A DNA stretch of 24,753 nucleotides from a virus: IMG/VR virus record IMGVR_UViG_3300007363_000096, positions 1 through 24,753 of that record. One strand, 5' to 3'. Positions 841-15,971 of this stretch are shown piece by piece; position 1 is the first letter of the stretch; the number at the start of each line of letters is the position of its first letter. The translations under genes and the position numbers were made by a program. The notes beneath the pieces are model-generated. The model did no database searches and was not told where the DNA came from. It saw only the letters and a list, made by a program, of their open reading frames with translations.

Positions 841-1743
841 TCAGCTCACCGTTGTCCACGTGCGGCCTGCAACAGCGGCCATCGACGCACCGGCCCAATT
901 GATATTATCATTCGATATGGCTGTGTTCCAAACCGCGAACTCTGTCATGTATCCGGTGTAATTGTTGCCGAACGTAACCCCAATTTCGATTAGGTTTGTG
1001 TCTGTGTATGAACCGATTGAAGTGGCCGCGAGTGGCGTGCCCTCAGCACCGTTGAAGAACGGCTCGACGTTCGCCCCGTCAAAACGCGCGCCCGCTACGC
1101 AGTTCATTGCAACGGCTTCTGATGCGACATCGGCGCTCGTGTGGCTGCTGGTGTAGTGATGCATCTGGACGACTGGCGTCCCCTTGAAGGCCAAGCCAAC
1201 GCGCGTCTGGATTTGCCAGAGCTGATTGTTTTGATACGGCAGCGAGTTGTTAGGCGCGACAGTCGGGCGGGCCACGGCCAGATGAGTGTAAGCCGTTGAC
1301 GTTATAAGCGTGCTACCCGCAGTGCCTCTCACATACGGGCCGGTTGGGAAATAGACAGTCGGCAACCCGTTGAGGTTTGTATGCAGAGTGCCGGCCGTAA
1401 CGACAAACGGCTGAAGAGAAGCCCCCGCCGTTCCGAAATTGCGCCCGTTGCCGCTCTGATCGTACCACGTGACAATCCGCCCGTCCGACCCGCCGACAAA
1501 CGACGTTAGAGCGGCAGTATCAACAAGCCCGTCTCCGTCGAAACCAATGTCTTGTTCTGCGTTGTCGCTGACGCGGCGCACACGATAGGCCGATCCACCG
1601 TATCCACTTCGCAAACGGCGGTAGGCCGAGATCATTGCATTCGGCGTTACGGTCACGTCGTCGAATTCGTCGGCAGCACCAGTCGGGGCACCTCCTGTAG
1701 GCGTTGCGTATGTCGGCGATTTGACAAGAATAACCCGACCCAT
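841..1743 (-). CDS. Tail fibre/host-recognition protein with GH54-like motif
   Basis: A 300-residue protein, the last of four fibre-type genes. Residues about 40-105 contain AYRVRRVSDNAEQDIGF, then TAALTSFVGG and VTWYDQSGNGRNF. This combination is characteristic of the alpha-L-arabinofuranosidase B catalytic family (GH54 type, Pfam ArabFuran-catal), which has been carried into many phage and bacterial surface proteins. The remaining 200 residues look like a beta-sandwich of the concanavalin A/laminin G kind, for example FNGAEGTPLAATSIGSYT and MTEFAVWNTAIS. The protein probably binds a host surface polysaccharide. Whether it cuts sugar is unknown, as catalytic residues could not be verified by eye. 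A ribosome binding site (AAAGGGG) precedes the ATG, 11 bases after the previous gene. No trimerising coiled coil is visible. Confidence 0.75.
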   Translation of the reverse strand: MGRVILVKSPTYATPTGGAPTGAADEFDDVTVTPNAMISAYRRLRSGYGGSAYRVRRVSDNAEQDIGFDGDGLVDTAALTSFVGGSDGRIVTWYDQSGNGRNFGTAGASLQPFVVTAGTLHTNLNGLPTVYFPTGPYVRGTAGSTLITSTAYTHLAVARPTVAPNNSLPYQNNQLWQIQTRVGLAFKGTPVVQMHHYTSSHTSADVASEAVAMNCVAGARFDGANVEPFFNGAEGTPLAATSIGSYTDTNLIEIGVTFGNNYTGYMTEFAVWNTAISNDNINWAGASMAAVAGRTWTTVS

Positions 1744-6721: not shown

Positions 6722-8625
6722 CAGATGCCGAACTCCCGTTTGAGTTGCGACCGTACGGCATCATCCATGCGATTTGGCGAGACTTTGCCTTGCAATTCCT
6801 TCTCAATCTCCGTTGCGCGCTGGTCTACAATTTTTTCCATGTCATCCAAAGCAACGCCCGCCTCCCACGGCTTCCCACGGAATCCGATCGTGTTCAGATA
6901 AATCGCGCGCGCCATGGCCTGTTTAGACTGTTTGGTCGTTTCAAGCATTTTGGCCTCGAATTCTGTCGGGCTGTCGCCGTCGAAGATCTTTGTGCCGGCG
7001 TTTGGAAGCGTCGTCATAATGCGCTGGTATTCCTGCTCGCTGACGGCAACGCCGGACAGGTATTTGACATAGAGCGCGGCGTTTGCGACTGACTTCTGTC
7101 GGAACTTGGTATAGCGCCCCAATTCTTTTTTATCTTCTTCCGGCAGCGCCCCGAACTTGTCCTGAAGCGCCGCCCACGCCATCCCCGTGCGGTTGAACAC
7201 GTCCAGAAATTTCGGATCAAAGTCCCTTTGGATCGACTCCAACCGGCCGATTGTGTTGGTCAGGCCAACAATATCCTTCTGAACTTCGCCTTGTGCCGTC
7301 TTATCAAGCCGCCCATCCTTCGCCGCCTCGGCCAGCATCTTGCCGGCTTCGCCTTTGCCCTTCAGCGCAAACGCAAACCCAAGCTTCTGTGCCTGACTGG
7401 CGGGCATCCGACCCGCTGGCGTGTCAACCACAGGATCTGCCGCGCTTTGCGCTTGGGGCAATCCAGGTGGCTGCGCCGTTTGCGTGCGGATGACGTTCGG
7501 ATCTGTGCCGGGGCCATCTTGCGGCATGTACGATTGCGGCTGAATTGGAGAGCCCGGCGCTTGATTCTGGCCGCCGCCGATGATGCTCATAATATATTGG
7601 TCAAGCGCATCCTTCTGGCCAAGCGCCTGCACCTCGGCCTCGGCCTTTTTGCGGCGAAGCGGGTTCATCGCTTTCGCTTCTTCAAGATCCATTCGCGCTT
7701 TTTCTTCTTGCAGCGCGGCCATTGGATCATTCTGGCGCCTGAACTGAGACAGCAAGAGGCTGCCGCCAATGTCTCGCGTCGCGGGGTTCATCATGAGCTG
7801 TTGCGGCGTCGGATTGCCGGCCAGGAGCGCGGCCATCGCTTCATTGGATTGTCGCTGCTGTGCTTCAGCCTCGCTCATATGCGCCCGGCCAACGCCAGCC
7901 TGCAACACGCGAGCAAGCGCCTGCGTCCAGTGTTGCACGGGCTCTGTGCTCATGCCCTGCTGCATGAGGGCCTGACCCATCTTGCGGGATTGCGCGATCT
8001 GTTCCGGCGTCGGTGCGTTCGAGTATGCGGCGGGCATCGGTGGCGCTGCCATCGCTGCGGCTCCTGGTGCTGATGTTTCACGTGGAATAGGGGCGGCCGA
8101 TGGCGCGATCGGTTGCGGCGCGCCATTGAACGCGGCGCCCTCGAGATCGAATTGACTGTTTAAGCGCGGCGCGATGTTTTTGTCATACCAGGACGCATGT
8201 TGCAGCGTTTCGCGCGGGCGCTGGACGCTGCCGAAGTAGGCCGGCACCTTGCCCTGATGCGCCACACGAATGAGCGCGTCCGCGACCTTGTCCGGGTCGT
8301 TGACATCCTGCCATGTGTTGAGCCCGTACTCGCCCTTATTGAACTGATATGGGCCGAATGATCGCTCGGTGGGAATAGTCGTCGAAAATCGCCGCAAAGA
8401 TCCGTCCGGGTTTGTCGGCGCGATCCGATGGCCGCTTTCCTGCTGGCCAACCATCGTGAAAAACCGCGTCCACTCCTCCGGCGACCCGGTTTTGATGCCG
8501 AATTGAGCGCCCCATGCTGGCGCTTGCCCTGCAATCGGAGAACCGGCGATCTTGTCCCGCAGACGTTGGGCAAACGTCACCGGGTCGTAAGCGCCGTTAC
8601 TGCCGAATGAGTAAGGCCCGCCCAT
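6721..8625 (-). CDS. Internal virion protein with lysozyme-like domain
   Basis: About 634 residues from the ATG at 8625, which is preferred because it forms a TAATG junction with the upstream stop; a TTG at 8646 would add seven residues. Residues about 50-135 look like a lytic transglycosylase/lysozyme fold: FFTMVGQQESGHRIAP holds a Glu (E63) in the ES context of SLT enzymes, and SFGPYQFNKGEYG (89-101) matches the second SLT motif. A DNA-ejection protein with such a domain would open peptidoglycan locally during entry, as T7 gp16 does. The middle region (about 150-420) is Pro/Gln/Ala-rich with several long charged helices, and the C-terminus (about 450-634) is helical. It is coupled to the 808-residue gene downstream. 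The lysozyme motif is seen; the entry role is inferred. Confidence 0.75.
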   Translation of the reverse strand: MGGPYSFGSNGAYDPVTFAQRLRDKIAGSPIAGQAPAWGAQFGIKTGSPEEWTRFFTMVGQQESGHRIAPTNPDGSLRRFSTTIPTERSFGPYQFNKGEYGLNTWQDVNDPDKVADALIRVAHQGKVPAYFGSVQRPRETLQHASWYDKNIAPRLNSQFDLEGAAFNGAPQPIAPSAAPIPRETSAPGAAAMAAPPMPAAYSNAPTPEQIAQSRKMGQALMQQGMSTEPVQHWTQALARVLQAGVGRAHMSEAEAQQRQSNEAMAALLAGNPTPQQLMMNPATRDIGGSLLLSQFRRQNDPMAALQEEKARMDLEEAKAMNPLRRKKAEAEVQALGQKDALDQYIMSIIGGGQNQAPGSPIQPQSYMPQDGPGTDPNVIRTQTAQPPGLPQAQSAADPVVDTPAGRMPASQAQKLGFAFALKGKGEAGKMLAEAAKDGRLDKTAQGEVQKDIVGLTNTIGRLESIQRDFDPKFLDVFNRTGMAWAALQDKFGALPEEDKKELGRYTKFRQKSVANAALYVKYLSGVAVSEQEYQRIMTTLPNAGTKIFDGDSPTEFEAKMLETTKQSKQAMARAIYLNTIGFRGKPWEAGVALDDMEKIVDQRATEIEKELQGKVSPNRMDDAVRSQLKREFGI

Positions 8626-9401
8626 TAGAACAGCTTCCCAACCCAAGGCGAGCCCAAGAGCGACCCGCCAATCCCCGCCAACCCGCCGAGCATCGCGTTG
8701 CGCTGCTGCATCTGCGCGTTATAGTTTTGCCACTGGCCGGCTTGATTCATGCCGACAAGGTTCGCAATATCGACGTTTTGAACCCCAACGCCCGGCACAT
8801 TGGCAAGGTTGGGTTGGAGCGACCCCATGCCGAACTGTAAGCCCGGCGCCAGTTCGCCAAGCTGCTGCTGACGATCAGCCAGCCCTTGTTGGAACATCTG
8901 CCCTTGCAAACCCGTCACGAGGTTGTTGCGCGCCTCATTCTGTTGGAGCGCAACGTCATTCATTTGGCTCTTGTACGCCTCACTGGTCGGGTCAAGGCCC
9001 TGGTTGCGCAAGCGGTTGATTTCCGCGTCTCGTGTGCGCTGGAAACGCGGCTCGAGGTTGGCCGAGGCATACTGATAGGCGCGATCAAACGCGGCATTGC
9101 TGCCGAGATCCGGGCGATTGCCCACGGCGCCGAAATACTGGCGGCCAAGATCCGACAGACCGCCCGTAAACATCTGCCCGGTCTCGCCGAGCTTCTGTGT
9201 GGCGTTAAAGATCGGATTGCCTTTGGCATCGGTGCCGCTCTGCGAATACGTTAGCGAATTGCCGAGTGCGTCCGTCTGGTTGACGCGATTAAACGAGGCA
9301 TTCTGCCAGGCGTTCGCGGTGTTCTGCGTGTTCGCCTGCGCCGTTGTTCCCGCGACATCAAGCGGCGCTGGCGCTTTTGGTGTTTTGAAGAGTGAGCCCA
9401 T
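8625..9401 (-). CDS. Probable internal virion/DNA-transfer protein
   Basis: A 258-residue protein of a family common beside ejection genes of alphaproteobacterial phages. The N-terminus MGSLFKTPKAPAP and the segment NRVNQTDALGNSLTYSQSGT (40-59) are typical; databases often label such proteins as tail fibre domain or DNA transfer proteins. The centre (about 95-180) is Gln/Arg/Asn-rich and helical (LEPRFQRTRDAEINRLRNQG), and the C-terminus (239-255) is Gly-rich and hydrophobic (MLGGLAGIGGSLLGSPW), which could touch a membrane. The gene overlaps the upstream GNAT-like gene by 44 bases and shares a TAATG junction with the lysozyme-domain gene. Its place between these two supports an internal virion role; the exact activity is unknown. 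Confidence 0.65.
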   Translation of the reverse strand: MGSLFKTPKAPAPLDVAGTTAQANTQNTANAWQNASFNRVNQTDALGNSLTYSQSGTDAKGNPIFNATQKLGETGQMFTGGLSDLGRQYFGAVGNRPDLGSNAAFDRAYQYASANLEPRFQRTRDAEINRLRNQGLDPTSEAYKSQMNDVALQQNEARNNLVTGLQGQMFQQGLADRQQQLGELAPGLQFGMGSLQPNLANVPGVGVQNVDIANLVGMNQAGQWQNYNAQMQQRNAMLGGLAGIGGSLLGSPWVGKLF

Positions 9402-9804
9402 TGATCCACCTGCATTGATGCGGCATCATTGAAAAGGCATAGGCGTCTTGCCCAGGCCCGTAATACTCACGCTCTGTGCCTTGGAACGTGAACCCGAACT
9501 TAGGGGCGGCGCGGCGCACTGTGCGGTTCTCCTTGCGCGTGCGAACCTCGAGGCGCCAGATCCCCCACTCGAGGAAAACAAGCCGAAACATGGCCTTCAC
9601 CGTGTCGTTACTCGTCTTGCCATAGACATGCAGCTCGGCGGTTGTTTCCGATCTCCATGTGATCACGAAAGCGCCCCGCAGCACGCCGCTGTCATCGATA
9701 ATCCCGAGCACAGCACGCGGCGCCTGATACACGGCCACGCCGTAGCGATGCGCCAGCCATTCGCAGATTGTCGCCTCGTGCTCGACCGCGCCAACGATCC
9801 TCAC
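9358..9804 (-). CDS. GNAT-fold acetyltransferase-like virion-module protein
   Basis: A 148-residue protein starting at GTG, which overlaps the nozzle gene stop (GTGA). The stretch IWRLEVRTRKENRTVRRAA followed by KFGFTFQGTEREYYG (about 93-127) matches the C-terminal half of GNAT N-acetyltransferases, where the acetyl-CoA loop precedes a KxGF motif. The front part (AVYQAPRAVLGIIDDSGVLRG) fits the first strands of the fold. GNAT-like proteins in this slot, next to internal virion genes, are known from T7/SP6-like phages, where the fold may be structural rather than enzymatic. No obvious Q/RxxGxG/A pyrophosphate loop is present, so catalysis is uncertain. It overlaps the next gene by 44 bases. 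Confidence 0.68.
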   Translation of the reverse strand: MRIVGAVEHEATICEWLAHRYGVAVYQAPRAVLGIIDDSGVLRGAFVITWRSETTAELHVYGKTSNDTVKAMFRLVFLEWGIWRLEVRTRKENRTVRRAAPKFGFTFQGTEREYYGPGQDAYAFSMMPHQCRWINGLTLQNTKSASAA

Positions 9805-11669
9805 AGCCAGTCGCCTTGCTCATACGTCACGAGGATGCCTTGCATTCGCATGGTTTCATCTGAATTGGCGCCAGATCCCCACAGCGCAACGCCCCACTTC
9901 GAAACGCCCCAAACAGACCCGCCCACCTGCACACCGATGGTTGCCTGGAACTTTACGCTTCCGAATGTTCCGATCGCGCCAACGCTCATCCAATCGGACA
10001 CTTGTGATTGCGTGTCGGACCAGATCAACCCGCCATCCCACAGCCCGCCCCCGTCCCAAGCCGTAGCATCTGAACCCTCCACGACCTGCGTCGAAAGGTT
10101 GTCAGTCTCCACAAAGTCTACCGACATGCCGACGGACGGTCGATTGGTGCCCGTTGCAGTCACAAGCGGCCGAACAAGCGAAAACAGTTTTGTGTAGGCG
10201 CCACCATAGGGCAGATAGGCACTTTGGCCCGTCGCCACGATCGGCTGATCTATGTCCGCGCTGCCCGTGTCGGCCTCATACACATAGCCGGCGCCGCCAA
10301 AATATAGCGTATCGTTGAACACAAGCCACGTGTTCGCGTTGTGGGCGTCGAACTCGCACCATGCGCCCGTCAGCGTGTTCATGACGTATTGGATCGCGGT
10401 CACGTTTTCGGCGGTCGGGATGTTGACAATCAACCGCGTGCCCTTGGCGTAGACGCACGCCTCCCAACCGAAATTGGCGCTGTACTCAACGGCCCGCAGG
10501 TTGAACGCTTGGCTGATGCGCTCCGAGATCGCCACGCGCCCGGTCTGGCTTTGATCGACCGCGAGCAGTTGCGACAGCGGGAACACGCCCTCGACGGTCA
10601 GCAGAAGCACGTCACCGCCGTAGCGTGTGAAGCAGCGCCGGCCGATCGGCGTTGGCACATCGAACGTGCCGACAAGTGCCCACGTGTTCGCGCTTGCCGG
10701 ATCGGTGCCCTGATAGACCGCCACCTGTCCCCGGCTCGAGATCGCGACGAAATAGTCATCCGAACCGGAGCCACCGTCACGTGTCCAGGTGGCAAGCGCG
10801 AGCAGATAACCGCCCTTGGTAAACAGCGAGCCAAATTGGAACTCTGCCGCCGCACCCGCCACAGCCTCGGTGCCGAGGTAAGCGGCTTTCGTGCTTTCAT
10901 TGAGGACGAACCATAGCCGTTTTTTATGGCTGATGACGTGTACCGCGTCGGCCGCCGTGATGCCGGTAATCGATGGCGTTGCCCAGGTCGTGCCGTTGTA
11001 GTGAACCGGCGCATCCGACCCGTTCACCACGAACACGAATTGCCCTGCGCTGGTTGTGTGATTGCACCATTGACAGCGATCGGTTGACAGGCCGCCATAG
11101 CTAAACGTCGCTGCGGCTTCCGCCGTCACGTCCCACACGGCGCCGCCCGCAATGGCCAACATCTTTGAACTCGCCGGCCCCTGCCAAGCCATCAGCGTTT
11201 GGGCGTCCGGGTCCGTGACCTCATAGACAGTGATTGTGCCCGATCCGGTTGACGTGATGTCAATGGCCGCGCCGCCATCCGATGCGGCCAGCTTGAATGT
11301 GTCCGTTGTCGCATCGCGCACGTAATAGACGGCCGAAGTTAACGGCGTTGGCAGTGTCGTGCTCGCGTGCACCTTGACGGCAGTACCATCGGCCAGCCCG
11401 TGTCCGGTGATCTCAATCAGATCGGTGGCGTCGTCAACGCTATCGACAGTCTGCGCATTCGATCCGAGTTCCCACGCATGATATTGGAACCCGCGCCTGA
11501 CCTCGACATAGCCCGGCTGCGGAAACCAATTCTTGAGCTGCACCGCGCGCTTTTCGCCCATGCTCGCGAGCGCGCTTGTGGCGTCCCATCCCTCGACGGG
11601 CGCCGGCAGCGCTTTGGCTCTTGAGATGCGAACGCGGCGGGCGTTGCGCTTGAGTGCGGTGCGGATCAC
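9801..11669 (-). CDS. Tail nozzle/tubular-B-like virion protein with inserted beta module
   Basis: A 622-residue beta-rich protein directly after the adaptor gene, in the position of the tail tube/nozzle component of short-tailed phages (P22 gp10 or T7 gp12 role). EGWDATSALASMGEKRAVQL (26-45) and LKNWFPQPGYVEVRRGF (45-61) are the typical opening of this family; the end, WGVALWGSGANSDETMRMQG then YEQGDWL, is the usual close. Residues about 75-154 (GHGLADGTAVKV, LPTPLTSAVYYVRD) form a compact beta module that interrupts the family pattern between RRGFQYHAWELG and TLMAWQGP. The start GTG overlaps the adaptor stop (GTGA). Tail assignment is strong from context and motifs; the exact tail component is inferred. 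Confidence 0.75.
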   Translation of the reverse strand: MIRTALKRNARRVRISRAKALPAPVEGWDATSALASMGEKRAVQLKNWFPQPGYVEVRRGFQYHAWELGSNAQTVDSVDDATDLIEITGHGLADGTAVKVHASTTLPTPLTSAVYYVRDATTDTFKLAASDGGAAIDITSTGSGTITVYEVTDPDAQTLMAWQGPASSKMLAIAGGAVWDVTAEAAATFSYGGLSTDRCQWCNHTTSAGQFVFVVNGSDAPVHYNGTTWATPSITGITAADAVHVISHKKRLWFVLNESTKAAYLGTEAVAGAAAEFQFGSLFTKGGYLLALATWTRDGGSGSDDYFVAISSRGQVAVYQGTDPASANTWALVGTFDVPTPIGRRCFTRYGGDVLLLTVEGVFPLSQLLAVDQSQTGRVAISERISQAFNLRAVEYSANFGWEACVYAKGTRLIVNIPTAENVTAIQYVMNTLTGAWCEFDAHNANTWLVFNDTLYFGGAGYVYEADTGSADIDQPIVATGQSAYLPYGGAYTKLFSLVRPLVTATGTNRPSVGMSVDFVETDNLSTQVVEGSDATAWDGGGLWDGGLIWSDTQSQVSDWMSVGAIGTFGSVKFQATIGVQVGGSVWGVSKWGVALWGSGANSDETMRMQGILVTYEQGDWL

Positions 11670-12376
11670 GAGATCGACCAGTTCCCGTCGGTCAAATATG
11701 GATCTGTCAGCGATGAAGCGTCATCACTCACGCCGAGATCGATCGTCGCCTGCCCGCCGTCTGTGCCGGCGAGTGACGCGAGACGGTGTTCATATTCCTG
11801 CATGTCCTCGCCGTAATCGAGGCCGCGGGCTTTCTTGAACCGCCACACCACGCCGAGCGTCATCAGTTCCTCATCCAGAAACGCCTCGTCAGTATCGACC
11901 ACCCAGCTTGTTTGGTCCGGGTCTGTGTCGCCGACGCTCGCGCACCAGTACTTCGTGACATACTCAAACGCCATGCTATCACCCGCCGTCGGCGTCGGTG
12001 ACATAATGATGTCGTTGCCACGGATGCGAAACGAGTCATAGGGCAGGGTAATAAGCCCGGTTTGCAAGCTCTGCCATCGCTGCGGCGACAGCGGCCCCGC
12101 AACGCGGCGATCCTGCGATCGATTAAAGAACGTGCCCGGAATGATGCGGTCGAAGTCGCTTGGCAACACACCGCTTTGCGTGGTCGTTGCCGTCGCCGTG
12201 AACGTCTGCTCGATAATCAAGCGCTGCCAATCGTGCCGACGCACCAAGGCCCGGCCGTCCTGGTTAGACAGCGTGATCATAGCCTTGACGTGATCGGCTG
12301 TTGACCCAATCACGGTGCCGGGTCGGGCCAGACCGACCCGAACGCACGCATCCTGCACGATTGTCAAAAGCGACAT
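11666..12376 (-). CDS. Head-to-tail adaptor protein
   Basis: A 236-residue protein resembling the phage adaptor/tail-tubular-A type family: LLTIVQDACVRVGLARPGTV (3-22) then LSNQDGRALVRRHDWQRLI (36-54) is the helical entry pattern of proteins that bind under the portal. The centre (DFDRIIPGTFFNRSQDRRV, then LSPQRWQSLQTG) and the beta segment DSFRIRGNDIIMSPTPTAGD are also typical. Near the end DEELMTLGVVWRFKKARGLD is a conserved helix. Its ATG overlaps the previous stop (TAATG), and it is followed by the nozzle-like gene with a GTGA overlap. The role would be to seal the portal and connect it to the tail. Confidence in the family is good. Confidence 0.82.
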   Translation of the reverse strand: MSLLTIVQDACVRVGLARPGTVIGSTADHVKAMITLSNQDGRALVRRHDWQRLIIEQTFTATATTTQSGVLPSDFDRIIPGTFFNRSQDRRVAGPLSPQRWQSLQTGLITLPYDSFRIRGNDIIMSPTPTAGDSMAFEYVTKYWCASVGDTDPDQTSWVVDTDEAFLDEELMTLGVVWRFKKARGLDYGEDMQEYEHRLASLAGTDGGQATIDLGVSDDASSLTDPYLTDGNWSIS

Positions 12377-12624: not shown

Positions 12625-13080
12625 TTATGCGGTGGCTTCTGGTTGGTCAGACTTTGGCGGGCGTCCTGGTCCACGCTTCGGCGCTTCGGCCGTGAGCGCT
12701 TCCAGCGCCTCGAGCTTGCGCTCGGCGAGAAATCCCTTGGCCACACGCGCCAGCGTCCACGTGCCCATGCCGAGACCCTTGGCGGCGGCCTCATCCAGTG
12801 CGGCCAGTTCCTCGGCAGTGCGGACGCCCTGGAGCTTCAGCGCCATGGCCCGGCCCTTGTCGATGCCCGGAACTTCCATCAATGACGTGCCCTTGACCTC
12901 GACCTCAGCCTTGCCGGCTTGGTATGCCGCCCACTCATTCGGCCAGCGCTCGACATCCTGCGGCGTGACCTTGCGGATGAGCGTGTTTGGATCGCCGATA
13001 ATCTTGATTTCGACCATGTCGCGATTCAGTTCGTCATCGCGCACGAACGAGGCGCGGAGCTTGTTGATCGGTTCTTTCAT
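12625..13080 (-). CDS. Phage protein with helix-hairpin-helix and AT-hook-like tail
   Basis: A 151-residue protein. The N-terminal half (VRDDELNRDMVEIKIIGDPN, QDVERWPNEWAAYQAGK) resembles a family of phage proteins found between capsid and adaptor genes. Residues 67-92 (LMEVPGIDKGRAMALKLQGV followed by RTAEEL) fit a helix-hairpin-helix motif, the non-sequence-specific DNA-binding unit that uses a PGI turn. The last 15 residues contain KRGPGRPPK (135-143), an AT-hook-like minor-groove motif. The start ATG overlaps the methyltransferase-gene stop (ATGA). A DNA- or head-associated role, for example in head completion, is plausible. No enzyme motif is visible. The HhH and AT-hook readings are by eye. 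Confidence 0.6.
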   Translation of the reverse strand: MKEPINKLRASFVRDDELNRDMVEIKIIGDPNTLIRKVTPQDVERWPNEWAAYQAGKAEVEVKGTSLMEVPGIDKGRAMALKLQGVRTAEELAALDEAAAKGLGMGTWTLARVAKGFLAERKLEALEALTAEAPKRGPGRPPKSDQPEATA

Positions 13081-14447
13081 GTTTCCCTCGTAACCACAAA
13101 AATGGAGTGCGGCCCAGCATCGGCTTCATGGGTGACGTGATAGCCAAGCCGTTCAAACATTCCGCGCCACCACGCATGCTCTTCAACTGTCAGATGTAAA
13201 TGTTGATTGATCACCGCGCCGAAGTTATCGGGCACCGTGGCAATCTGGAAAAACGCTGTCGGGACGCTCGCCATGATGTTGGCAATCACCGTCTCGACAT
13301 GCTGCGGCGGGATATGTTCCAGCACGTCCGCGCAGTAGCCGAAATCGCCATGCAACGGGCACCGCTCGGTCAGGTCGTGCTCGATAAAGGGCAAGTGCAA
13401 CACCTCGTTGTCCCGGCAGTTTGAGGCGAAATCGACCAAGAATACGTCAAGGCCTGTCCTGGAGATCGCCAGCCCGCCGCGCCCTGTGCCACATCCGAAG
13501 TCGATAACGAGCCCGGTTGGCTTAACAATCTCCATGAACATCTGCGCCGAGTCCTCGCCAGGGCTTTGTCGGCGATAGCCGGCCACGGACCACATGCGCA
13601 TGTATTTCTCACGCTCCGGGAGCGCTTCTGGCGGGGTATTCCACATGTCCGGTAACAATCCAGATCCGTGAATGTGGATGGTGCAGCCGGCTGCTTCCAA
13701 CGCACGCAAGGTTTCCTGCGCTTTTTCGGCTTGCAGCTTCATTGTGAGACTAGTGCGGTATTCCTTGCCGTTCCACACCACCACGCAATTGGGCTCCCCG
13801 TCGTTCATGCGCTGATGGAACGCATGCGACTGTGCCGAGCGGTGGCTGCTGTCATAGCCATAGAGATGCAGCGTCCGAAAGCCCATCACATAGGCCAGCA
13901 CCGTCGACGTATTGCCGACGCTCGCAGCGCCGCCAACCAGGGCAAACGGGTGCGGATAGTTCGGCAGGTCGTCGTCAATGCCTTCAATCTGTAGATGATA
14001 CAGCTTCGCATGCGGCAAAGCCTCAAAAATAGCCGGATGACACTGCGAGGCAATCAAGTGGTCTTTGGCAGGCCCAACAAGCTGTTTCGTCTCTTCGCGA
14101 GGGTCGATCATCACTTGATAATCAGCAAGGATGCCGCGCTCGTTGAGATAGGCTGCCGCCCCATTCATCGCGAAGATCACGACGCCAGCTTTGGCATGCG
14201 CGCGAACCTCGTCTAGTGTGTCCGCGAGTGACGGACCAGAGCCAACCAGAACCGCAACGTGCTCGTGGGCCGGCTCGCTTTTCACCCACTGCCGCATCAG
14301 TTGGCGCGCGCGCGCAGAGTTGGCCTTGATGTTCCGGTGCAGGTCCTCTTCGGACGTGTTGCAAATGACATGCACGGGTAGGATGAGCGGCGCGGTGGCG
14401 CCGGGATTCCAGTGATTGATCTGTAGATTGGCAAAAGGTAGCTGCAC
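13077..14447 (-). CDS. Two-domain DUF115/MptE-like and SAM methyltransferase protein
   Basis: A 456-residue protein with two enzyme-like domains. Residues about 30-265 match the DUF115/6-hydroxymethylpterin diphosphokinase MptE-like family, also the core of Maf flagellar glycosyltransferase proteins: VAVLVGSGPSL (64-74), FAMNGAAAYLNERGI (92-106), and GGAASVGNTSTVLAYVMGFR then LHLYGYDSS (172-201). Residues about 300-456 are a class I SAM-dependent methyltransferase: IDFGCGTGRG (315-324) is motif I, and YCADVLEHIP (371-380) is the DxLEHIP post-motif. The start GTG at 14447 lies just past the terminator, with AAGGG upstream. It is coupled to the next gene by ATGA. The substrate is unknown: a glycan, a virion protein or a small molecule are all possible. 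Families are clear; biological role is inference. Confidence 0.85.
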   Translation of the reverse strand: MQLPFANLQINHWNPGATAPLILPVHVICNTSEEDLHRNIKANSARARQLMRQWVKSEPAHEHVAVLVGSGPSLADTLDEVRAHAKAGVVIFAMNGAAAYLNERGILADYQVMIDPREETKQLVGPAKDHLIASQCHPAIFEALPHAKLYHLQIEGIDDDLPNYPHPFALVGGAASVGNTSTVLAYVMGFRTLHLYGYDSSHRSAQSHAFHQRMNDGEPNCVVVWNGKEYRTSLTMKLQAEKAQETLRALEAAGCTIHIHGSGLLPDMWNTPPEALPEREKYMRMWSVAGYRRQSPGEDSAQMFMEIVKPTGLVIDFGCGTGRGGLAISRTGLDVFLVDFASNCRDNEVLHLPFIEHDLTERCPLHGDFGYCADVLEHIPPQHVETVIANIMASVPTAFFQIATVPDNFGAVINQHLHLTVEEHAWWRGMFERLGYHVTHEADAGPHSIFVVTRET

Positions 14448-14456
14448 AAATCACCC

Positions 14457-14487
14457 TTTTAAAAAGGCGGGAGCCTCGGCTCCCGCC
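14457..14487 (-). terminator. Intrinsic terminator after capsid/decoration genes
   Basis: Read on the minus strand, a perfect 10-base inverted repeat (GGCGGGAGCC and GGCTCCCGCC, with two bases between) is followed at once by TTTTTAAAA. The stem is GC-rich and the effective loop is small. The plus strand lacks a T run after the hairpin, so it should act only on minus-strand transcripts. It lies in the 48-base gap between the decoration-like gene and the DUF115-methyltransferase gene, and would reduce expression of everything downstream relative to capsid. Confidence 0.88.
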
Positions 14488-14495
14488 AGTCAGGC

Positions 14496-14999
14496 TTAGG
14501 TCACGCGGCCCTGCATGGCCGGCCGGTTGACAACAAGCGTTACCGTTGTCCGGCCAGCCGTGGCAGACGCCACCGCCGAGACCATAGCGCCCTGGATCTC
14601 GTTGCCGGAGATCGTCGCGACCGCAAGGCCGGTTGACGAACTGACGGCCACCTTGGCCGCAGCCGCAAACGACACCGTGCATGCCTTCGCCGCCACGGCC
14701 AGACCGCTGATCTGATACCAGCCGTATTGATCGGCGACGTTAGCCGACATTGCGACAGCAAGCGGCCCCGGCACGTTCTCGCCCGCATAACCAAGCGCCG
14801 TCTGGTAAGTCGTGCCCTTGTAGTTGACGATCGATCCAACCGTCGTGGAGGCCACGCCCTTCAGATAGATGAACTCGCCGCTGCCATAGGTCGGGTCATG
14901 CGCCTGAATGATAGTGCCAAGCGGATGATTCTGCGTCGTCGAGGTGGTTGCAATCGGCTGATGGCCAACCAGCGCCGGGCCAACTGTGCGATAAGTCAT
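14496..14999 (-). CDS. Probable capsid decoration/stabilising protein
   Basis: A 167-residue Ala/Thr/Val/Gly-rich protein directly after the major capsid gene, with the strongest ribosome binding site in the window (AGGAGG, nine bases before the ATG). Its N-terminus (HQPIATTSTTQNHPLGTIIQ) and YGSGEFIYLKGVAST (37-51) match small proteins that commonly follow this capsid type. The rest is predicted beta (VGSIVNYKGTTYQT, QYGWYQISGLAVAAKACTVS). Head decoration is inferred from position, expression signal and composition; no decoration protein family was named with certainty. Transcription probably ends at the terminator a few bases downstream. Confidence 0.68.
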   Translation of the reverse strand: MTYRTVGPALVGHQPIATTSTTQNHPLGTIIQAHDPTYGSGEFIYLKGVASTTVGSIVNYKGTTYQTALGYAGENVPGPLAVAMSANVADQYGWYQISGLAVAAKACTVSFAAAAKVAVSSSTGLAVATISGNEIQGAMVSAVASATAGRTTVTLVVNRPAMQGRVT

Positions 15000-15014: not shown

Positions 15015-15971
15015 TTAGGCGCAGATCACAGCCTGAAGGCTGCGGTTGCTGGTTGTCATATTGCCGGCCAGATACATCGGGACCACCATGGCGTCCTGGT
15101 TGACCGATGCCTTGTCGCCCGCGGGCTTCATCCACCGCCCCTTCGCCTTGCGGACAAAGAGATAATCGGTGTTGAGCATGTACATGCGGGTCGCATTGCA
15201 GTTGTCGTCATAGACAACCGGCAGGTTGCCCATAAACATCAGATTCGTGAAGCCGGCGCCGGCGTTCTTATCGTCCGCAAAGCGCTGGTTCACCTGCAAC
15301 GAGGCGAGGTAATAGAGGTAGTAGGTCTGGCCCGCAGTGCAGATGTCCGGTTTATCTGACCCGCGAATGACGTTGATGTGGGCCGTGTTCATCGCGGCCT
15401 GGATGGTGGTCGAGCTGGCGGTGATCGCCAACGTCGAGAAGTCGTAGACGTAGTTGCGCCACCATGAGTAGGTGTTGCCGCTGATGCCGCCGACGGTGTT
15501 CGTGTTCGTGTCGGCAACAAGCAACTGCAATCCACCAAACTCCTTGCCGCTGCTGCCGGTGCCGTCGGCATAGAGCGCCGAAGCAACGGTATTGCGCAGC
15601 GACTTCTCGAGATTCCGGATGCGCGCCTTCAGCAGGTTGTGCACCGCCTCTTTGCCGCTGTTCTGGATTTCCTCGAGGCCGGTGATCACCACGTTGCCGG
15701 CGAGCTGCTTGTAATTGTATTCAGCCGCCGTGAACGTCTCGGAAGCCGAGATGTCCAGCGCTTCCGCGCCCGTGTACCAGTTCACCGTGCCGTTTTCGGC
15801 GTACTCGAGCTCCTGAACAATCGTGCGGCCGGTTGCGACCTCACCATTGCCCTTGCGCTCGATCTGCCGAAGCAAGGCATTGTGATTGGTGATATTGTCG
15901 GCCAGCGTGCCGGAGTACCCCTGCAAGCTGGTTGTTACGATGTCAGTGAAATCGCTGTTAGGCGATGCCAT
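15015..15971 (-). CDS. Major capsid protein
   Basis: A 318-residue protein following the scaffold, with the family signature of many alphaproteobacterial phage capsids: an N-terminal helix segment (TSLQGYSGTLADNITNHNAL), then IVQELEYAENGTVNWYTG, and the central ITGLEEIQNSGKEAVHNLLK followed by ARIRNLEKSL and SALYADGTGSSGKEFGGLQL. The C-terminal half contains the VRKAKGRWMKP and DAMVVPMYLAGNMT strands. An HK97-type fold is expected from the family. It forms the shell. A ribosome binding site (AAAGGA) lies about 11 bases upstream of the ATG, 28 bases after the scaffold stop, one of the larger gaps here. No internal protease cleavage site is evident, and the scaffold is separate. Confidence 0.92.
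   Translation of the reverse strand: MASPNSDFTDIVTTSLQGYSGTLADNITNHNALLRQIERKGNGEVATGRTIVQELEYAENGTVNWYTGAEALDISASETFTAAEYNYKQLAGNVVITGLEEIQNSGKEAVHNLLKARIRNLEKSLRNTVASALYADGTGSSGKEFGGLQLLVADTNTNTVGGISGNTYSWWRNYVYDFSTLAITASSTTIQAAMNTAHINVIRGSDKPDICTAGQTYYLYYLASLQVNQRFADDKNAGAGFTNLMFMGNLPVVYDDNCNATRMYMLNTDYLFVRKAKGRWMKPAGDKASVNQDAMVVPMYLAGNMTTSNRSLQAVICA

Follow-up and report, generated by a model that had tools for sequence, protein, structure and literature searches.

The window, which is the whole stretch of 24,753 nucleotides that was analysed, carries on its minus strand a block of virion genes in which a gene for a two-domain protein lies between a capsid decoration-like gene and the tail genes. 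The features of this block are listed below in the direction of reading.

15015-15971, minus strand: major capsid protein (MCP), PHROG 9953, E=2.6e-88
14496-14999, minus strand: capsid decoration-like virion protein, 167 aa, proposed acceptor, PHROG 29386 virion structural protein, E=1.5e-27
14544-14609, minus strand: decoration residues 131-152, with Ser/Thr kept where the enzyme is present and absent in the enzyme-less clade
14466-14487, minus strand: intrinsic-terminator-like hairpin between the decoration and fusion genes, 9 bp (8 G-C) followed by T5
13077-14447, minus strand: DUF115-methyltransferase fusion gene, 456 aa, GTG start
13635-14444, minus strand: DUF115 half, Maf-like sugar-transferase by prediction, residues 2-271
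14226-14243, minus strand: GSGPSL nucleotide-binding loop, residues 69-74
13908-13934, minus strand: GGAASVGNT motif, residues 172-180
13812-13859, minus strand: GYDSSH..H208..Q212 motif, residues 197-212
13080-13622, minus strand: class I SAM methyltransferase half, residues 276-456, with an LHLTV...WW signature, assigned from fold and conservation
13476-13502, minus strand: SAM-binding motif I DFGCGTGRG, residues 316-324
13308-13328, minus strand: DVLEHIP motif, residues 374-380
12625-13080, minus strand: next gene, HHH-like, 151 aa, in ATGA overlap with the fusion gene
11666-12376, minus strand: tail/head-tail protein downstream of the cassette, PHROG 6013, E=1.2e-56

The fusion gene runs from 14447 to 13077 with no internal stop codon. 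An earlier note on this DNA had read its product as a fusion of a DUF115/MptE-like domain and a class I methyltransferase, and both halves were recovered. PF01973 (MptE-like) matched residues 39-201 (E=1.5e-18, 67.6 bits compared to the Pfam gathering cut-off of 34.6), and all four motifs named in that note (VGSGPSL 68-74, GGAASVGNTS 172-181, DFGCGTGRG 316-324 and DVLEHIP 374-380) are present at these residues. The methyltransferase half of this one sequence stayed below the Pfam threshold (PF13489, 23.6 bits versus 27; weak methyltransferase models at ~305-407) and was rescued by its fold and by an order-swapped relative (P0007), in which PF13649 exceeds the cut-off (34.7 versus 27). This half has the Rossmann-like fold, the GxGxG of motif I and the acidic post-I residue of class I methyltransferases. 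In 75 fusion sequences, G71, S73, N95, D115, G178, D199, H208 and Q212 of the DUF115 half and G318, G322 and D339 of the methyltransferase half were invariant, and D316, G320, D374, E377, H418 and W427 nearly so. With its predicted active-site residues thus conserved, the protein has retained intact nucleotide and SAM pockets. The ATGA at 13080-13077 places the start of the next gene inside the stop codon of the fusion gene, which agrees with the translational coupling suggested before.

The AlphaFold2 model of the fusion protein, built with 26 relatives, had a mean pLDDT of 87.5. Residues 2-271 aligned with the Maf glycosyltransferase 5mu5 from Magnetospirillum over 224 residues (Z=22.1, rmsd 3.2, VIA-align), and residues 276-456 matched many class I methyltransferases with Z up to 19.1, among them the sugar methyltransferases TylM1 and CalS10 (Z ~17). 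In fold searches of the fusion model, matches of the methyltransferase half filled the matches listed, and Cst-II was not among them. We then compared a profile built from 14 diverse phage DUF115 domains with PDB sequences. Maf 5mu5 ranked best (E=1.8e-16), followed by MptE 8sd5, a 6-hydroxymethyl-7,8-dihydropterin pyrophosphokinase (E=3e-4), and the GT42 sialyltransferases of the Cst-II type (E=0.022). The MptE alignment covered the N-terminal half only (profile positions 17-134 of 258), so that whole-length similarity to MptE was not found; the two share PF01973 and the N-terminal nucleotide loop. The Cst-II similarity was very weak and confined to the GNGPSL-like loop and the GxD region, and PHROG 4603, an alpha-2,3-sialyltransferase, weakly matched the split homologue in MW202621. 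We also considered H208 as a catalytic base by analogy to Cst-II but dropped this idea, as H208 aligns with the Cst-II 'SSYAF' stretch, where Tyr replaces His.

Thus, by profile and fold, the DUF115 half most resembles the catalytic domain of Maf, an enzyme that attaches nonulosonic acids to flagellin by O-glycosylation, and MptE is well behind. Of the two links that the earlier note had drawn for DUF115, the one to Maf stands and the one to pterin diphosphokinase is disfavoured. The phage protein has the central DUF115 catalytic domain of Maf with its sialyltransferase-like fold, and the positions of D199, H208 and Q212 are kept, with H and Q also present in Maf. Unlike Maf/PseD, it lacks the N-terminal Rossmann-like and C-terminal helical domains; a SAM methyltransferase replaces the C-terminal domain, and the gene adjoins a capsid decoration gene in a phage genome. 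PseD/Maf was the sole NCBIfam model to match the fusion protein, at 1.2e-5 and far under its cut-off (FlagModPseD, 24.2 bits versus 670). Second DUF115 copies found at two related loci (L012 and L080) matched PseD (1.3e-11) and the Kdo transferase WaaZ (1.9e-5). Because the known relatives (Maf, PseD and WaaZ) transfer ulosonic acids, an ulosonic-acid transferase is the best-supported type for the DUF115 half, as judged by homology only.

Relatives of the fusion gene were found mainly in uncultured phages. A search of 50,697 phage genomes matched one record, and there the methyltransferase half only, whereas viral metagenome contigs yielded 25 further full-length fused relatives with 40-87% identity (alignment A2); the bins in which full-length relatives occur are mostly alphaproteobacterial. 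In all 25 the fusion directly follows a decoration-like gene, so the position after the capsid block pointed out earlier is conserved, and the order major capsid - decoration - fusion - tail genes was present in every examined locus that was long enough. The scan with the decoration protein reached at least 577 loci, of which the best 80 were kept; together with other loci they gave 81 distinct decoration proteins, which are those nearest to the locus in the window and not a random sample. The fusion accompanied 67 of them, DUF115 alone or in another fusion accompanied seven, and seven had neither (one locus in each of the latter two groups, L063 and L108, respectively, ends at a contig end). 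DUF115 lies downstream of the decoration gene in about 73 of ~80 distinct loci closest to that of the window.

The content of the slot behind the decoration gene varies. At L105, an FdtA gene (1.7e-37) is followed by a 687-aa protein that joins GT2, a glycosyltransferase (phrog_1962, 6e-32) and DUF115, and at L067 a 658-aa protein combines a glycosyltransferase (phrog_1962, 6e-35), DUF115 and Methyltransf_24. A NeuD-type hexapeptide acetyltransferase gene lies upstream of the DUF115 gene at L030, and a PS_pyruv_trans-like gene accompanies a second DUF115 at L027. The slot is therefore modular, with sugar-modifying enzymes exchanged behind the decoration gene. By eye, the N-terminal domain of the L030 DUF115 protein resembled GT-A, but this reading found no support from profiles or PDB matches, and BLAST to the L105 glycosyltransferase domain gave E=0.023. 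The DUF115-methyltransferase pair also occurs in other arrangements: as a fusion in reverse order (L114 and L115, the latter directly behind a capsid-like gene) and as split adjacent genes after a capsid gene (MW202621 and the Lysobacter dokdonensis prophage L117). In L115 and L117 the capsid-like gene was called by eye and position. MW202621 and L117 have distant DUF115-like proteins, which were sub-threshold or unmatched in Pfam. The occurrence of the pair in two fusion orders and as adjacent genes suggests that both enzymes belong to one pathway. In L118, a related cassette adjoins a tail tube gene (PF08813, below cut-off with E=1.6e-4) and possibly serves tail tube glycosylation: immediately upstream of that gene, positions 6803-9133 encode two further DUF115-like proteins, a methyltransferase relative and a glycosyltransferase-like product.

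The strong hairpin between the decoration and fusion genes, which the earlier note does not mention, recurs: a home-made scan of 67 loci detected a hairpin with a T-rich tail in the same interval of 33, some of them enzyme-less. Such a terminator would likely keep transcription of the structural genes above that of the enzyme gene. At two loci, genes that by eye resemble HNH-type homing endonucleases are inserted between the decoration and fusion genes (L036:5559-6209, which had no Pfam match, and L066:5542-6159). At two others, related small genes of unrecognisable family lie upstream of the fusion gene (L080:5485-6066 and L074:4660-5184); a reading of these as sulfotransferases by eye was dropped as neither Pfam nor PDB supported it.

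The decoration protein is related to a protein of Myxococcus phage Mx8 that is named 'major virion structural protein' (53.5% over residues 1-99). Its predicted model was of low confidence (pLDDT 61.8); the first ten fold matches of this model were mostly capsid decoration proteins, with a best E=0.24, and the matches, which include Sf11, HFTV1, lambda gpD, YSD1 and P21 SHP, were not individually significant. To compare the histories of the genes, we correlated pairwise identities between proteins across 55 non-redundant loci (values for a smaller set in brackets). MCP and the tail protein were strongly correlated, r=0.82 (0.80), and so were the decoration protein and the DUF115 half, r=0.67 (0.83). 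In contrast, r was 0.13 (0.16) between MCP and DUF115, 0.21 (0.24) between MCP and the decoration protein, and 0.22 (0.45) between the decoration protein and the methyltransferase half. The bootstrap interval of the difference between the decoration-DUF115 and MCP-DUF115 correlations was 0.42-0.66. This pattern indicates a common history for the flanking capsid and tail genes, and a different one that the decoration gene has in common with the DUF115 half. For example, locus L008 and the window are 35% identical in MCP but ~83% in the decoration protein and 74% in the fusion protein. Adjacent genes may travel together without a shared function; however, adjacency by itself would make MCP, which lies just as close, covary with the decoration protein too, and this was not observed. 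As the divergence of DUF115 follows the decoration protein and not MCP, the covariation points to the decoration protein as a probable partner or substrate of the DUF115 half. The earlier note had left the substrate open, and the covariation favours the adjacent decoration protein as the acceptor. Moreover, positions 131, 145 and 152 of the decoration protein hold Ser/Thr in 92-100% of the proteins that have the enzyme and in 0/7 of those without it. Two of these seven loci are from Mx8 and Mx9, in whose complete genomes we found no MptE-like gene. We regard the Ser/Thr stretch as a lead to possible acceptor sites and not as proof, because the enzyme-less proteins form one clade (i.e. one evolutionary event) and the alignment is gapped there.

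Taken together, the locus probably encodes a virion glycosylation enzyme of the phage, a Maf-like transferase that acts on the decoration protein and is coupled to a methyltransferase. Maf itself offers the model, as it O-glycosylates a surface filament protein in the cytoplasm from a CMP-ulosonic acid. By analogy, the putative catalytic activity of the DUF115 half, with its GT42-like fold, would be the transfer of an activated sugar, probably one that resembles sialic acid, to Ser/Thr residues of the decoration protein, the product of the gene immediately upstream. This step would take place in the cytoplasm, either while the virion is assembled or earlier, and the methyltransferase half would then methylate the sugar so attached or the protein. 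The donor would most likely be a CMP-ulosonic acid of the host, CMP-Kdo or, where the host makes them, CMP-Pse, CMP-Leg or CMP-Neu5Ac. Maf enzymes take CMP-Neu5Ac and CMP-Kdo in addition to their native donors (PMC11339370). A profile search recognised no donor-making genes in the window. In five genomes with relatives, mostly metagenome bins, a member of the PF02348 CMP-sugar synthetase family was present in 5/5 and NeuB was absent in 4/5, although such bins are incomplete and phage contigs in them are often mis-binned.

What else could the enzyme modify? The earlier note had considered a modifier of the virion or of the host surface; gene order and covariation make the virion role the likelier, and the host surface gained no support of its own. 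On the latter reading, host LPS or capsule would be glycosylated and methylated during infection, blocking superinfection or re-adsorption to debris. Phages often bear surface-modifying glycosyltransferases, and the fold relatives Maf and WaaZ build flagellar glycans and LPS, both of which speak for this role. Yet the gene keeps a fixed place among the capsid genes, following the decoration gene, the divergence of its DUF115 half tracks the decoration protein and not the remaining phage, and related cassettes adjoin other virion genes, including the tail tube gene of L118. We thus consider host-surface modification quite improbable. Another virion protein (the major capsid, a head-tail or a tail protein) could be the acceptor, with the decoration linkage arising from physical hitch-hiking. 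Nearest to the enzyme gene lies the decoration gene, so an exchange of both as one block requires no functional tie, and in other phages similar cassettes adjoin different structural genes. But MCP is as close to the decoration gene and covaries neither with the decoration protein nor with the enzyme, and the covariation is located in the DUF115 half and not in the methyltransferase half; on balance a different virion acceptor is unlikely.

Two further readings concern the chemistry. The DUF115 half could be a genuine pyrophosphokinase like MptE, or some other kinase that depends on a nucleotide, and would then make a pterin or small-molecule product for its methyltransferase. The Pfam family is named after MptE, and 8sd5 was matched. 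However, Maf is matched better by twelve orders of magnitude, the alignment to MptE omits the GxD...H region that is common to Maf and, partly, to Cst-II, and the neighbours in the slot are sugar enzymes, with no pterin genes seen among them. We regard a kinase as highly improbable. Alternatively, the two halves could act on unrelated targets and be fused for co-expression, a reading that overlaps with virion glycosylation as far as the DUF115 half is concerned. The methyltransferase half is missing at some loci that have DUF115, so the two activities need not share one substrate; it is replaced by Methyltransf_24 in L067, and it does not covary with the decoration protein. Against this stand the two fusion orders and the adjacent separate genes of the pair in different phages, and we find unrelated targets somewhat unlikely.

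Glycosylation of the decoration protein by a Maf-like transferase would not be the first case of virion glycosylation by a phage. It has been reported, only recently, in the mycobacteriophages Che8, Corndog and Myrna, where capsid and tail tube proteins are glycosylated by phage-encoded enzymes (Freeman et al. 2023, cited in PMC12363180). The enzymes there are mycobacteriophage glycosyltransferases, and the passages of PMC12363180 that cite them do not mention a fusion to a methyltransferase. What appears to be new is the link of a Maf-like transferase to a decoration protein; our literature search returned no report on phage DUF115 glycosyltransferases, and the papers that it returned for MptE-like proteins and phages were unrelated. 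The data suggest that related uncultured phages, dozens of which have the same enzyme in the same place, coat their capsids with sugars. In a broader and more tentative form, which we hold to be possible but doubtful, this would be a widespread modular cassette for capsid glycosylation: an ulosonic-acid transferase of the Maf type would serve only the adjacent decoration protein, co-evolve with it and use CMP-Kdo of LPS-bearing hosts, and swappable methyl-, acetyl-, pyruvyl- and glycosyltransferases would give each lineage its own sugar coat. If glycosylation of the decoration protein is true, many environmental phages modify their capsids by a flagellin-type glycosylation enzyme with a named acceptor protein, and the donor may be a sugar of LPS-bearing hosts. 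It would also give a molecular account of the swapping of decoration cassettes (environmental adhesion, stability, escape from binding proteins) and a possible tool for O-glycosylation beyond flagellin, and the database label 'pterin diphosphokinase' on such phage genes would be corrected.

Some further genes were noted in passing. In a contig from a Rhodospirillales bin (L121:7351-8621), two bacterial methyltransferases, one of them related to the methyltransferase half of the fusion, adjoin genes that read by eye as flagellar hook genes, perhaps reflecting methylation of flagellar glycans. In the window, the small protein encoded between tail genes at 9358-9804 (minus strand) is GNAT-like by eye, with no Pfam match, and the gene at its place is annotated as a putative acyl-CoA N-acyltransferase in Mx9 and as a potential holin in Mx8. 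Finally, near the lysozyme gene, the protein encoded at 841-1743 (minus strand) matched PF09206, the alpha-L-arabinofuranosidase B catalytic domain, over residues 35-108 only (E=4e-9), and it possibly carries a lectin-like tail or adhesion domain.
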